Positions 20,691 to 46,789 of a stretch of DNA of 64,000 nt are shown here, in pieces. Position numbers and translations under genes: made by a program. The notes under the pieces are model-generated. The model saw only the letters and a program-made list of their open reading frames with translations, had not been told where the DNA came from and ran no database searches. The stretch comes from Thiomicrorhabdus sp. zzn3. GTDB lineage: Bacteria; Pseudomonadota; Gammaproteobacteria; Thiomicrospirales; Thiomicrospiraceae. Positions within the stretch are counted from its first letter, which is position 1; each line of letters begins with the position of its first letter. The stretch is taken from NCBI RefSeq assembly GCF_029767755.1, contig NZ_JARUQS010000001.1, positions 372,001 to 436,000 of the forward strand. The letters run 5' to 3'.

Positions 20691-20739
20691 ATGGGTCGCT
20701 GTTACAAACCAAACAGGCCTGTTCGGTTTGTCGTTTGCA

Positions 20740-36714: not shown

Positions 36715-36748
36715 TTAAAAAAACCACCAATTTTGGTGGTTTTTTTTA
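36715..36748 (+). terminator. Terminator after hisD
   Basis: AAACCACCAA and TTGGTGGTTT with a TT centre, followed by eight T. Marks the end of the mla-mur-his gene run. An octamer copy (36774) follows. Confidence 0.9.
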
Positions 36749-36814
36749 GCCCGAAAAAGCGATTTAAACTCAGCAGGCCTGGTTTTGGGTGGTTTTAAAT
36801 GCAAGGAGTCAGTT

Positions 36815-41911: not shown

Positions 41912-43276
41912 ATGGCAAAAAATAAAAGCGCCTATGTGTGTACCGATTGCGGTGCCGAACACAGTCAGTGGCAAGGGCAATGCATGGCCTGTAAGGCCTG
42001 GAATACCTTAAAAGAAATTAAGCTTAGAAGCGGTAAAGCCAAGTCGCCTTCGGCTGCGGTCGGTTATGCTGGTGCGAGTGAGCAACAGGTCAAGGCGATC
42101 CATGAAGTGAGCCTGACGGAGGTGCCGAGGATGGCTTCCGGAATGTCCGAATTGGATCGCGTACTCGGCGGCGGGATCGTGCCTGGTTCCGTGGTGTTAA
42201 TCGGTGGCGACCCAGGAGTCGGAAAATCTTCCATTTTGTTGCAGACGATGTGTCAGCTCAGTACGCAAATGCCTGCGTTGTATGTTACGGGTGAGGAGTC
42301 GCTACAGCAAGTGGCGATGCGCGCGAAACGTATGCAGTTGCCTGATGAGCATTTGCGTTTGTTGACTGAGACCGATGTCGAATCCATTGTCCAGGCGGCA
42401 CAAAAGGAAGCGCCCAAAGTGATGGTAGTGGATTCGATCCAAACCATGCAGTTGGCAGACATTGGCAGTGCCGCCGGCGGGGTGTCGCAGGTGCGGGAAA
42501 CCGCCGCGTTCTTGACCCGTTTTGCTAAACAGAACGATGTGGCGATTTTTTTGGTGGGCCACGTCACCAAATCCGGTGAGGTAGCCGGTCCGCGCGTGTT
42601 GGAGCATATTGTGGATACGGTGGTGTTTCTGGAAGGCCAGTCCGACAGTCGTTTTCGGACCTTGCGTGCGATTAAAAACCGTTTTGGCGCGGTCAATGAA
42701 TTGGGCGTGTTTGCGATGACGGAGAAGGGTATGAAGCAGGTTAAAAACCCTTCTGCCATTTTCTTGTCGCGCGGAGAAGAAGCGGCACCGGGTTCGGTGG
42801 TTATGGTGGTGTGGGAAGGTTCGAGACCGTTATTGGTCGAAATTCAGGCTTTGGTGGATGAATCGCCCTACGGATCACCGCGTCGGGTCACGGTCGGCCT
42901 GGATCAGAACCGGATCGCCATGCTGTTGGCGGTGATGCATCGTCATGGTGGCATACTGGCGGCGGATCAGGATGTCTATGTCAATGTGGTTGGCGGGGTC
43001 AAGGTCAGTGAAACCAGTGCCGACCTGGCACTGCTGTGCGCCATTCTTTCAAGTATGCGCAACCAGCCTCTGCCGCAAGATTTGATCGTATTCGGCGAGG
43101 TAGGCCTGGCCGGTGAAATCAGACCTGTCCCTAGCGGCCAGGAGCGAATTATCGAGGCGGCTAAACATGGGTTTAAGCGTGCGATCGTCCCGTTTGCCAA
43201 TGTACCTAAAGGTGGCGTGGCCGGAATGGAAATTACAGGCGTAAAAAGTCTGCAACAGGCGCTGGATGCGCTTTAG
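41912..43276 (+). CDS. radA: DNA repair protein RadA (Sms)
   Basis: RecA-like branch-migration ATPase for recombination repair. The 454 residues begin with a four-Cys zinc motif (CTDCG...CMAC, about 8-28), Walker A GGDPGVGKSS (98-107), RadA motif KNRFG, and a Lon-like C-terminal domain. ATG 41912 was preferred over an in-frame TTG two codons before. Confidence 0.98.
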   Translation: MAKNKSAYVCTDCGAEHSQWQGQCMACKAWNTLKEIKLRSGKAKSPSAAVGYAGASEQQVKAIHEVSLTEVPRMASGMSELDRVLGGGIVPGSVVLIGGDPGVGKSSILLQTMCQLSTQMPALYVTGEESLQQVAMRAKRMQLPDEHLRLLTETDVESIVQAAQKEAPKVMVVDSIQTMQLADIGSAAGGVSQVRETAAFLTRFAKQNDVAIFLVGHVTKSGEVAGPRVLEHIVDTVVFLEGQSDSRFRTLRAIKNRFGAVNELGVFAMTEKGMKQVKNPSAIFLSRGEEAAPGSVVMVVWEGSRPLLVEIQALVDESPYGSPRRVTVGLDQNRIAMLLAVMHRHGGILAADQDVYVNVVGGVKVSETSADLALLCAILSSMRNQPLPQDLIVFGEVGLAGEIRPVPSGQERIIEAAKHGFKRAIVPFANVPKGGVAGMEITGVKSLQQALDAL

Positions 43277-43392
43277 GTCAAGTTTTGACTAGGATATTGA
43301 GTGCTTTTATTCCTGAGCAGGTAAATTCAATCGAGCGAATTAACAAGCGTGATAAAATCGCGTAGTTTAAACAATCGAATTGAGGAATGAAT

Positions 43393-44598
43393 ATGAAACC
43401 ATTTGCACGCATTGTATTTCCAGTTTTAGCGATGTCGTCTCCAGCGGCTATGGCATCCGGTTTTGCCCTGATTGAGCAAAGCGCCAGTGGGCAAGGGCTT
43501 TCCTATGCAGGTGCGGCGGCGAATACTGAAGATGCGAGCGTGATGTGGTTTAATGCCGCAGGTTTGACGGACATTGAAGGCAATCAGGCGATTGCCGGTC
43601 TGCATGTGATTTTGCCGGAAAATAAATTTACCAATAATGGTTCGAATATAGGCGGCGTAGTGCCTTTGACCGGAGACGATAATCCGGCAACGACCGGATT
43701 GGTTCCGAACCTGTATTGGAAAGGGGATTATGCCGGTTATGCGATCGGTTTTGGTGTGAATGTGCCCTACGGACAGAAGCTTGAGTATCAGGACGATTGG
43801 GCGGGAAGATACCAGGCACTGAAAACCGATCTGAAGTCGCTGAACTTGAACGCCAATGTTGCACGCAAAATATCGGATTCCACCTCGATCGGTTTGGGAA
43901 TCAACGCTCAGTATGTCGATCTGGATATGTCTTCAGCGGCCCAGGTTGGAGAAGCGCAAATCAAGGCGAATAGTTGGGGCTATGGTTTTAATGTGGGGGT
44001 GTTGAGTCAGTTGACGCCGGCGACCAAACTGGGCGTGGCTTACCGTTCAGAGGTGGTGCAGAATGCCAAGGGGGATTTAGAGACCGTGTTGGGCACGCAA
44101 AAAATTCAGTCGGATGTAACCTTGCCGGCAACAGCGAGCATGAGTTTCGTTCATTCGGTAAGCGATAGAATGCAGATTTTGGCCGATGCGACCTGGACGA
44201 ATTGGAAAGCGTATGATGAATTGGTCATTGAAGATTCAGCCGGCAACACTTTGAGTGAAACCAATCAGAACTTTAAGGACTCTATGCGTTATTCTGTGGG
44301 GATGATTTACGATTACAGTGATCGTTGGCGTTTGCGTACCGGTGTTGCGTTCGATGAAACGCCGGTTCCCGATGCGGAAAGCCGTTCTCCGCGTACGCCT
44401 GACAGCAATAAAACATGGCTGTCGGTCGGTTTTAATTACCAGGTTTCTCCATCCATGAGTCTGGATGCGGGCTATAGCCGTCTATTTGCCGACAAGGCTA
44501 AAATCAATAAATTCGACGCTTCATCGAACAGTTATCTTATTGGAGAGTATGAGACGTCAGTCGATATTATCAGCGCGCAGCTGGTGTGGAATTATTAA
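43393..44598 (+). CDS. FadL/OmpP1/TodX-family outer-membrane channel
   Basis: Predicted 14-stranded barrel for hydrophobic substrates, 401 residues. The signal peptide ends AMA before SGFALIEQSASGQG, the conserved N-terminal hatch start. The N-A-A-G motif follows in VMWFNAAGLT. It ends in an aromatic-rich strand, QLVWNY. The second ATG is chosen because GAGGA directly abuts the first and lies 6 nt from this one. Substrate unknown. Confidence 0.9.
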   Translation: MKPFARIVFPVLAMSSPAAMASGFALIEQSASGQGLSYAGAAANTEDASVMWFNAAGLTDIEGNQAIAGLHVILPENKFTNNGSNIGGVVPLTGDDNPATTGLVPNLYWKGDYAGYAIGFGVNVPYGQKLEYQDDWAGRYQALKTDLKSLNLNANVARKISDSTSIGLGINAQYVDLDMSSAAQVGEAQIKANSWGYGFNVGVLSQLTPATKLGVAYRSEVVQNAKGDLETVLGTQKIQSDVTLPATASMSFVHSVSDRMQILADATWTNWKAYDELVIEDSAGNTLSETNQNFKDSMRYSVGMIYDYSDRWRLRTGVAFDETPVPDAESRSPRTPDSNKTWLSVGFNYQVSPSMSLDAGYSRLFADKAKINKFDASSNSYLIGEYETSVDIISAQLVWNY

Positions 44599-44634
44599 AC
44601 GCGTCAAGACCCTTCATCATAAGTATATAAGTAT

Positions 44635-44676
44635 AAAAAAACCGAACCGAGCAGGCCTGCTCGGTTCGGTTTTTTG
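44635..44676. terminator. Perfect 40-bp palindromic terminator centred on the iterated octamer
   Basis: Bases 44636-44675 read the same on both strands, centred on CAGGCCTG (44652-44659), with A and T runs at the ends. It lies between convergent genes and can terminate both. Confidence 0.93.
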
Positions 44677-44696
44677 CTTTATTGGGTTTATGGTTG

Positions 44697-45509
44697 TTAT
44701 TGGGAGGCGTGTTGAAGATGGTTTTGCCAGGCTGTGAACAAGTCCGGCGTGGTCGCCGCCAGAGCTGATCGCTTGATCACCTGAGTGACGACGACGCATT
44801 CCCCATCCAGGGTGGCGCTTTTACCCCCGGCTTCTTCTAAAATAAGCCAACCGGCGGCGTAATCCCAAATGTTTTGTGCTCCATGCAGGTAAATCTGTCC
44901 GCGCCCGGCGGCAATCCAGCACCAATCCAAAGCCACCGAACCGAAGCTGCGTTGGGAAGAGTAGGGTGGCTGGGTGGCCAAATTAGCCGCTAAGGGCGCC
45001 TGAAGGCGTTTAAAATCAACTATGCCGCTACACTGTTTCAGGGCGTTTTTAGCGGTTGACGCGATGAGCGTTTGATCGTTTAATTCGGCTCCGAGTCCTT
45101 TTCGTGCCGCAAACATTTCATTTCGGCTTGGGTCATAAACCAGTCCTAAAACCAGTTCTCCCTTAATCATCAGGGCGAGCGAGACCGAGTAAAACGGAAT
45201 GCCGCAAGCGAAGTTGCTGGTGCCGTCAACCGGGTCCAAGATCCAGCAGCCTTGTTCGCTTTCCATGGCTGCTTGCTGTTCTTCCAGAGTGGATTCTTCT
45301 CCCAATAAGGCAAATTGCGGCCAATGCTGCTTTAAAAAGGCCTTCGTATGAGCTTGCATTTGAGTGTCGGCTTCCGTCAATAAAGAGCCGTCGTCCTTGG
45401 TTTCGGCAGAGACTTTTTCAAAACGGCTCAATACCTCTTGCTGCGCCAGCTGGATAATGCCTTGCTTGAGTTGTTGCCATGTTTGCTGGTCTATAAAAGG
45501 ATGTGTCAT
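44697..45509 (-). CDS. Inositol monophosphatase-family phosphatase (SuhB/CysQ-like)
   Basis: Mg2+-dependent, Li+-sensitive phosphatase family, 270 residues. Metal motifs: GEEST (about 69-73), DPVDGTSNF (about 94-102) and a C-terminal WDYAAGWLILEEAGG. The exact substrate (inositol phosphate, PAP or similar) is not decided by sequence. Lies 17 bp after the CorB-like gene. Confidence 0.88.
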   Translation of the reverse strand: MTHPFIDQQTWQQLKQGIIQLAQQEVLSRFEKVSAETKDDGSLLTEADTQMQAHTKAFLKQHWPQFALLGEESTLEEQQAAMESEQGCWILDPVDGTSNFACGIPFYSVSLALMIKGELVLGLVYDPSRNEMFAARKGLGAELNDQTLIASTAKNALKQCSGIVDFKRLQAPLAANLATQPPYSSQRSFGSVALDWCWIAAGRGQIYLHGAQNIWDYAAGWLILEEAGGKSATLDGECVVVTQVIKRSALAATTPDLFTAWQNHLQHASQ

Positions 45510-45526
45510 GATGTGTTAGTTTCAGT

Positions 45527-46789
45527 TTATGTGAGTTCAATCAATTTTACTTTTTCAATGGCGTTAGAGGAGGTTTCAAGAACTTCCAGAACATAGCCGT
45601 CGATGCGAATGCAGGTGCCGATGTTGGGCAGAGATTCAAGCTCTTCCTGAAGCAGGCCGTTTAGGGTTTTCGGGCCGTCGGTCGGCAAGTTGAATTGATA
45701 CTGTTTGTTGAGCTCGCGGATAAATTCACCAGCATCGAAGGTCCAAGAACCGTCTTCATTCATCTCCACCGCTTGAGGTTCCTTGGACTTGGCGTCGGTC
45801 GACAGTTTACCGACGATCTCTTCCAATAGGTCTTCCATCGTCAGCAGTCCCTGGATGTCGCCATATTCGTCGACGATCAGCGCCATACGGCGTTTGTTTT
45901 TGTTGAACTTGTCCAACTGGATGTTCAGCGAGGTGGTTTCCGGCACGTAGTATGCAGGCCTGGTGAGTTTCACCAAGTCTTTCAGTGAGACATTGCTGCG
46001 CATCAGTGTCGGCAGGGCTCTGCGTAGATTCAGAATGCCGATCAGGTCGTCATCGATGGTGCCTCGATATAGGGGAATGCGGGTATAAGGCGATTTTTGA
46101 ATCGCCTTTAGGATCGCCTCGATCGGCTGATCGATGTTGACGCCGTAAACTTCCTGCTTCGGGATCATGACGTCTTCCACGGTAACGCTTTCCAACTGTA
46201 AAATGCTGGTGAGCATCGAGCGATAATGAGACGGCAGTTGTCCCGTCGCCTCATCAATTAATGTGTGCAGTTCCTCCTGGCTTAAGGCGTAGGATTCCTC
46301 CTGGTGCAATCTGGCCCCAAACAGCTTTAGGAAACCGTTAGCAAAGAAGTTGACAAACCAGACGATCGGATAGAGCAGCTTGAGCAACGGCTCCAGAAAA
46401 TAGGCGGCCGGGTAGGCGATTTTTTCCGGATACATCGCCGCCAGTGTTTTAGGCGCCACTTCGGCAAAAATCAAAACCACTAGGGTCAAAAGCCCCGCAG
46501 CCAGTGCAATGCCGGCTTCACCAAGCAGTTGCATCGCGATAATGGTGGCGATCGAGGAGGCGAAAATATTAACGAAATTGTTTCCAAGCAGGATTACGCC
46601 GAGCAGACGGTCGGGCGTTCGCAGGAGTTTTTGCGCTTTAATGGCCGCTTTATTTCCGGATTTGGCATGGTGTTTCAAGCGGTATTTGTTGAGCGCCATC
46701 ATGCCGGTTTCTGAGCTTGAAAAAATGGCGGATAAAATAATGAGTAGCAATAAAATGCCAAACAGTATTGGAAGATCTAATGAGTTCAA
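45527..46789 (-). CDS. CNNM/CorB-family membrane protein with CBS and CorC domains
   Basis: 420-residue protein: DUF21 membrane part (1-165, three or four helices, SSSETGMMALNKYRLKHHAK), a CBS pair (about 200-330) with VEDVMIPKQEVYGV, and a CorC_HlyC domain (about 340-420). Related proteins act in Mg2+/Co2+ efflux. The start is TTG, needed to keep the first helix, but no ribosome site is visible. An octamer copy at 45955 is oriented against the gene. A ypjD-corB pair next to ffh is common. Confidence 0.9.
   Translation of the reverse strand: MNSLDLPILFGILLLLIILSAIFSSSETGMMALNKYRLKHHAKSGNKAAIKAQKLLRTPDRLLGVILLGNNFVNIFASSIATIIAMQLLGEAGIALAAGLLTLVVLIFAEVAPKTLAAMYPEKIAYPAAYFLEPLLKLLYPIVWFVNFFANGFLKLFGARLHQEESYALSQEELHTLIDEATGQLPSHYRSMLTSILQLESVTVEDVMIPKQEVYGVNIDQPIEAILKAIQKSPYTRIPLYRGTIDDDLIGILNLRRALPTLMRSNVSLKDLVKLTRPAYYVPETTSLNIQLDKFNKNKRRMALIVDEYGDIQGLLTMEDLLEEIVGKLSTDAKSKEPQAVEMNEDGSWTFDAGEFIRELNKQYQFNLPTDGPKTLNGLLQEELESLPNIGTCIRIDGYVLEVLETSSNAIEKVKLIELT

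Follow-up and report, generated by a model that had tools for sequence, protein, structure and literature searches.

A perfect 40-bp palindrome centred on a genome-iterated motif in Thiomicrorhabdus: a predicted bidirectional terminator carrying a putative palindromic DNA uptake signal

Between two convergent genes of Thiomicrorhabdus, a sulfur-oxidising bacterium, lies a perfect 40-bp palindrome, which by its sequence is a textbook case of a bidirectional intrinsic terminator, a prediction in which we have very high confidence. Its apex is formed by one copy of the word CAGGCCTG, which recurs throughout the genome and is practically certain to be an iterated functional element. The explanation that we prefer, and consider moderately probable, is that this word is a putative uptake signal for self-DNA that has been reused in terminators. 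The features discussed here are collected in Table 1.

Table 1. Features of the 64-kb stretch of DNA analysed here (the window), in window coordinates.
Position	Strand	Type	Feature
44636..44675			Palindrome, perfect over 40 bp; predicted intrinsic terminator for both strands, motif at apex
44636..44647			Outer stem, left arm AAAAAACCGAAC; shared with the motif-poor relatives L003 and L004
44664..44675			Outer stem, right arm GTTCGGTTTTTT; shared with L003 and L004; predicted T-tail for fadL transcripts
44648..44663			Inner palindrome, 16 bp, CGAGCAGGCCTGCTCG; counterpart of a plain loop in L003 and L004
44652..44659			Motif core CAGGCCTG at the centre of the palindrome
43387..44598	+	ORF	Upstream gene, taken to encode a FadL/OmpP1-type outer-membrane transport protein (fadL); stop codon before the terminator
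44697..45509	-	ORF	Convergent gene, taken to encode an inositol-monophosphatase-family protein; ends before the terminator
36717..36747			Second predicted terminator, stem CCACC/GGTGG, loop AATTTT in the window
36774..36781			Motif copy closely following the motif-free terminator 36717..36747
20714..20721			Motif copy between convergent genes; G017 keeps it, G025 differs by one base

The palindrome, AAAAAACCGAACCGAGCAGGCCTGCTCGGTTCGGTTTTTT, equals its own reverse complement over 40 of 40 bases with zero spacer. This identity confirms what a preliminary description of the window had proposed, namely a perfect palindrome with two 20-bp arms and the motif at its centre. The longest other perfect zero-spacer palindrome in the window measures 16 bp, and with equal base frequencies the chance expectation of perfect 40-bp palindromes in 64 kb is about 6e-8. 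The RNA of each strand is predicted to form a stem of 18 bp capped by a GGCC loop, followed by a T-rich tail, which on the plus strand is TTTTTT at 44670-44675 and then GCTTT, and on the minus strand comes from AAAAAAA at 44635-44641. Folding energies of -29.1 and -28.6 kcal/mol are predicted for the two hairpins (z -7.5 and -9.2), and none of 200 shuffles of either strand is equally or more stable. A pattern scanner also calls a terminator at 44636-44675 on the plus strand. However, it finds 2 terminator-like matches around the palindrome compared with a shuffle mean of 2.1, and the scan alone therefore proves nothing; the evidence for a terminator is the length of the stem and the stability of the fold. 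Rfam gives no match in 43000-46000 at E <= 1. The terminator that had been proposed here thus stands as a prediction from sequence, on the basis of the position between convergent genes, the hairpin, and the T-tails on both strands.

The closest homologues of the gene neighbouring fadL are from Thiomicrorhabdus, with 81% identity in T. chilensis and 83% in strain ZW0627, as found by a scan of genome contigs. This genus is placed in the Piscirickettsiaceae by NCBI.

The word at the apex is present in 859 copies in the 2.37-Mb genome, compared with 21 copies of the reversed control word. The window contains 23 copies, compared with 0.72 +/- 0.78 (maximum 3) in 100 shuffles. When 159 copies from 426 kb of sampled sequence are aligned, leaving out contexts cut by the ends of stretches, conservation is seen over a dyad of some 24 bp, AAACTGANCAGGCCTGNTCAGTTT, with A/T tracts placed symmetrically on both sides. 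The dyad is seen in both genic and intergenic copies, and is stronger in the 68 that are intergenic. The placement of the copies is far from even. On the basis of gene calls made by a simple codon-usage caller, the density is 4.9 per kb in convergent spacers, 1.36 in co-directional and 0.44 in divergent ones (66 copies; chi-square p 2e-10; two intergenic copies without a called gene on each side are excluded from the count), and about 0.24 per kb within genes.

Numerous copies, palindromic shape and an intergenic bias are also what a small mobile repeat of the REP or MITE type would show if it were inserted at 3' ends. The copies, however, share only the graded consensus of about 24 bp and have no defined ends, and 91 of the 159 lie inside called genes, where two reading frames are used and the third seldom (42, 43 and 6 copies). 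We regard a mobile repeat as extremely unlikely.

The relation of the motif to terminators was surveyed across the genome and its relatives. Among zero-spacer palindromes with a half-arm of at least 10 bp, eight of nine are centred on the motif in 519 kb of the genome from which the window comes (G000). The same holds for two of three in 80 kb of G025 and for the single one in 100 kb of G017, giving 11 of 13 over the three motif-rich genomes. The ninth palindrome of G000 has one full copy of the motif facing another that is one base off. Five motif-poor genomes together have one such palindrome in 320 kb, and it is motif-free; G020 has none in 149 kb. Motif copies also occur in pairs, with 8 pairs found within 80 bp where about 4.7 are expected, and two of these 8 (L068 and L071) continue to pair for 8 bp beyond the motif. 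The suggestion that other terminators carry the motif is borne out by these motif-centred palindromes, and by an inverted pair of motifs at the same locus in T. chilensis (see below).

Most terminators nevertheless lack the word. T-tailed hairpins that hold the motif, counted by strand, amount to 8 of 51 (stem of at least 7 bp, 426 kb) or, by a looser rule, 7 of 93 (519 kb), leaving 43 of 51 and 86 of 93 without it; both rules are crude, and the 34-bp palindrome in L074, for one, escapes them. Contigs L078-L080 contribute to the 426-kb counts of contexts, spacers and terminators, and the 519-kb palindrome survey was made outside them. This scarcity, together with the plain loops of the homologous terminators described below, is what would be expected if the terminator were an ordinary one, the abundant word having fallen in its loop by chance and the two being unlinked. 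The long zero-spacer palindromes argue against this, being nearly all centred on the motif in motif-rich genomes and nearly absent from motif-poor ones, and we consider a chance coincidence to be very unlikely.

Comparison of the same loci in relatives shows predicted terminators both with and without the word. At the locus of the 40-bp palindrome, T. cannonii (L003) and MAG DE12.002 (L004) have the same gene pair, separated by AAAAAAACCGAAC, a plain loop and GTTCGGTTTTTTT, and their 10.8-kb loci contain no motif copies. The window has the same outer stem, and has CGAGCAGGCCTGCTCG where the other two have the loop. In T. chilensis (L001), two inverted copies of the motif form the arms of one hairpin at this locus. 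ZW0627 (L002) and most other relatives have neither the conserved stem nor a hairpin made from a motif pair. A second example is the predicted terminator at 36717-36747, whose stem is common to four genomes (that of the window, G025, G017 and G020). Its loop is AGGCCT in G025 and G017, which together with the flanking stem bases reads CAGGCCTG, and GTCATT in G020.

The wider region syntenic with the window has 29 motif copies per 80 kb in G025, 20 in G017 and 2 in G020. Considering only the sites aligned without gaps (11, 12 and 10 of the 23, respectively), 4 of 11 are kept in G025, 7 of 12 in G017 and 0 of 10 in G020, against a background of about 0.13. The two motif-rich relatives together keep 11 of 23 aligned sites compared with about 12.5% for any 8-mer (p 4e-5); the difference of G020 from background is not significant (p 0.23).

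A second dialect of the motif is found in one genome, G023, which is poor in CAGGCCTG. In this genome as a whole, ACCGGCCGG occurs about 1100 times on each strand. The full palindromic form, ACCGGCCGGT (L092, L126-L129), has A-rich tracts at the same positions as the motif described above, and its core, CCGGCCGG, matches CAGGCCTG except at positions 2 and 7. Its spacer densities fall in the same order, at 5.87, 2.63 and 0.65 per kb (23 of 46 copies intergenic, 100 kb), and it forms the centre of three of the four long zero-spacer palindromes found in 100 kb. It was found in none of the 15 T-tailed hairpins in the same 100 kb.

Iterated palindromes that change between relatives are also known from cyanobacteria. 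According to the available part of PMC4390886, HIP1 is a highly iterated 8-bp palindrome, and alternative HIPs, which are other palindromes, occur in some relatives. The motif could be an element of this type, kept by an orphan DNA methyltransferase together with methyl-directed mismatch repair, as proposed for HIP1, in which case its presence in terminators would be a by-product. It is GC-rich and palindromic, a relative has a different palindrome, as some HIP genomes do in that account (PMC4390886, in part), and its one-base variants, mostly at positions 1 and 2, exceed those of motif-poor genomes. The palindromic shape is thus a point against the uptake reading. A constant methyltransferase partner was looked for in three families, PF00145, PF01555 and PF02086, and was set aside: in 10 of the 23 motif-rich genomes none of these families gives a match over the cut-off, and the sole match over the cut-off in G000 is in a PF01555 frame of 1125 aa, with a similar one of 1123 aa in the motif-poor G026. 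The flanks are graded and extend for about eight bases on each side with A-tracts, compared with about one or two in the part of PMC4390886 that deals with them, and the bias towards convergent spacers is strong. The lack of a constant methyltransferase among these three families, the long flanks and the spacer bias all weaken a HIP-type explanation, which we therefore judge to be rather unlikely.

In 40 genomes of the family, the number of copies of CAGGCCTG is either high or low: 23 genomes have 409-1133 copies and 17 have 0-74, some of the latter being few-fold above the reversed control and others equal to it. The extended word, with both strands summed, is similarly divided in 32 genomes of the genus. 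It is high in 15 (327-1891 copies), intermediate in G004 (63, control 4) and G020 (79, control 6), and between 2 and 28 in the remaining 15. In a RadA tree of 30 members of the genus, G004 and G020 form a pair (support 100/100), within a five-genome clade (97/98) that also contains the window's genome, G025 and G017, with no branching order inside it. Loss and erosion of the motif in G004 and G020 is the likelier reading, because other members of the genus and the family commonly have the motif, but it is not forced, since the tree gives no order within the five-genome clade.

The on/off distribution was compared with that of competence genes. All 23 motif-rich genomes in the family sample have an open frame for ComEC of 799-915 aa, and in the family and genus samples together a frame of 799 aa or more is present in 31 of the 32 motif-rich genomes; the exception is G005, an 82%-complete MAG with a ComEC fragment. 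A one-piece ComEC over the cut-off is also present in 18 of 29 motif-poor genomes (Fisher p 0.0008, relatedness ignored). This tally includes G034 (675 aa) and G062 (771 aa), which pass the cut-off although they fall short of 799 aa, and counts as ComEC-less the frames of 683-708 aa in genus g2, which are under it, and G001, where the gene is in two pieces on two contigs. For genomes at least 95% complete the figures are 27 of 27 motif-rich and 13 of 19 motif-poor (p 0.003), and without genus g2 the motif-poor figure becomes 13 of 16 (p 0.045), relatedness being ignored in both cases. When the comparison is restricted to the genus, the association is not significant (14 of 15 compared with 12 of 17, p 0.18, relatedness again ignored). 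ComEA is non-discriminating and was rejected as a correlate, being present in most motif-poor genomes and in 28 of the 32 genomes of the genus, including G004 and G020.

In G020, comEC is split into two pieces by an insert of about 36.8 kb that resembles a Mu-like prophage; the phage genes in it we take to be Mu-like. In its partner G004 comEC was not found, which may be an assembly gap, since this genome is a MAG in 520 contigs. The prophage of G020 (C1 about 51.3-88.0 kb, L194-L196) carries a D12 methyltransferase and has one motif copy inside it. A separate observation is that G031, which is 99% complete, has a ComEC match that is short and weak at best, and a motif count near background. 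Eleven prepilin N-termini were found in G000, and a scan of ten of the proteins gave essentially prepilin-type N-terminal matches and no receptor candidate.

These distributions also bear on the possibility that the motif is bound by a dimeric chromosome-organising or nucleoid protein, with terminators and convergent spacers being the places where such a site would disturb least. A 24-bp dyad with A-tracts does resemble a site for a dimer, the copies are spaced near-randomly within the sampled stretches, with a mean of about 2.4 kb, and across these stretches there is no overall strand polarity. For a role in chromosome maintenance, however, one would not expect a change of dialect, near-absence in relatives of the same genus, or scarcity in the pair without intact comEC. 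We consider such a binding site unlikely.

A putative uptake signal appears to be the best explanation because it joins the copy number, the dialects, the constraint-led placement, the reuse in terminators, the on/off distribution and the scarcity in the pair without intact comEC. The motif would most likely be read as a recognition signal for self-DNA in natural transformation, presumably by a competence protein. Copies would spread through biased uptake followed by recombination, and would settle where the sequence is least constrained, namely at the 3' ends of genes, in convergent spacers and in terminator loops. The scarcity in G004 and G020 would then be decay after loss. At the locus studied here, RNA polymerase coming from either side would transcribe the 18-bp stem, the GGCC tetraloop and then a U-rich tail, and a single copy of the dyad-symmetric motif of about 24 bp, with half-site AAACTGANCAGG, would lie at the hairpin apex. 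As the core is its own inverted repeat, a single copy can prime the stem.

To our knowledge, the known uptake signals are asymmetric. The uptake signal sequence (USS) has its AT segments on one side, and the terminator hairpins of Neisseria and Haemophilus are built from pairs of asymmetric copies. In the present motif, the core and its flanks are dyad-symmetric, and the asymmetric core of the known DUS and USS is absent. This is where it differs from the published parallels: a palindromic signal, as predicted here, of which a single copy would suffice for a stem.

In other respects the parallels are close. Uptake-signal systems are placed in the Neisseriaceae and Pasteurellaceae, for example in the available part of PMC7811141, and the same two families are named in the available part of a survey from 2026 that covers the terminators of thousands of genomes (PMC13020248). 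In the accessible portion of PMC1852404, neisserial copies number 375 in 268 tail-to-tail regions and 104 in 270 head-to-head regions, USS are likewise located in tail-to-tail regions and terminators, and terminators with an uptake sequence make up 54-57% in three Neisseria and 17-23% in Pasteurellaceae. Like the neisserial DUS, the motif has many genomic copies, is enriched in tail-to-tail spacers and takes part in terminator hairpins (PMC1852404, in part). It also has dialects among related species, as described for DUS, with inverted pairs, in the available part of PMC3630211. It differs from DUS in being palindromic, so that one copy can make a hairpin, in its sequence, in occurring in another family, the Piscirickettsiaceae, in the putative nature of its uptake role, and in the smaller share of terminators that contain it, which is far below the neisserial 54-57% and at or below the 17-23% of Pasteurellaceae quoted from the same part of PMC1852404. 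With the Pasteurellaceae USS (AAGTGCGGT plus AT-rich segments) it shares a GC-rich core, AT-rich flanks and a part in terminators, going by the available text of PMC1852404 and PMC7811141, but its A/T tracts are symmetric on both sides. As an A-tail, GC stem and T-tail between convergent genes, it is also like any ordinary bidirectional intrinsic terminator, which is exactly what the copies in T. cannonii and MAG DE12.002 are; unlike these, it has a genome-iterated word at the position of the loop, which makes it a zero-spacer palindrome.

The preliminary description had suggested that the economy known from Neisseria, in which uptake sequences double as terminators, also applies here. The parallel is close in that the published terminator and tail-to-tail pattern, as given in the available part of PMC1852404, is reproduced; that the motif is an uptake sequence is a further step, which we infer.

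More tentatively, and at odds close to even, the observations may point to an unreported class of palindromic uptake signals, with at least two palindromic dialects and possibly a poly-G one. A receptor matching the symmetry of such a motif would be dimeric or pseudo-symmetric and unlike ComP. In this class a single copy would nucleate a terminator, and the loops would serve as interchangeable positions where the signal comes and goes while the stems are conserved. We found no report of an uptake signal in the Piscirickettsiaceae or in relatives of Thiomicrospira in the open-licence literature searched, and among the matches listed for the bare word CAGGCCTG the titles are unrelated. If the uptake reading is true, it would add a third group with uptake signals, free-living and chemolithoautotrophic, to the Neisseriaceae and Pasteurellaceae. 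With its on and off genomes, its second dialect and a genome whose comEC is broken, this group would make it possible to test by comparison how uptake signals originate and decay, and the homologous loci would show a terminator with and without an uptake signal.

Other iterated words were noted in the relatives. The G023 word ACCGGCCGG is slightly above control in G012, G013, G019, G024, G026 and G031, but not in G010; four of these six genomes sit near G023 in the RadA tree, and the small excess is possibly a relic of its dialect. In G016 (L088, L139-L141), G029 (L096) and G001 (L081), runs of 7-11 G precede an A/T-rich tract, as in GGGGGGGGAAAATTTT. This poly-G element belongs to a motif-poor sister clade and occurs 53 times in about 94 kb, 42 of the 53 being in called genes. 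In 40-80 kb each of the motif-poor G003, G019, G024, G074 and G076, no over-represented word of comparable density was found; L083 (1,133 bases, GC 0.00) yielded no words. The top words of G019 come from one tandem array of 15 units of 11 bp containing CCTCTTATA (L133:9890-10053), and in G024 (L093, L131, L132) CTGTACAGC, GACTATGC and the palindromic GCTGTACAGC are over-represented, dispersed and at low density.

Finally, two features of the motif copies within G000 deserve mention. All 23 copies in the window have T at +2, and of the one-sided copies 8 are T-only and none A-only; in 20 other stretches there are 33 A-only and 22 T-only copies (p 0.0015 for the imbalance in the window). A global polarity of the motif, as in KOPS or Chi-like orientation, was considered and dropped, because both one-sided classes occur outside the window. 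The stretch of G000 at C1 228-268 kb (L148, L149) is motif-poor, with 4 copies in 40 kb, and part of it has few called genes. It includes what we take to be the carboxysome/RuBisCO gene cluster, and is possibly acquired or constrained DNA.
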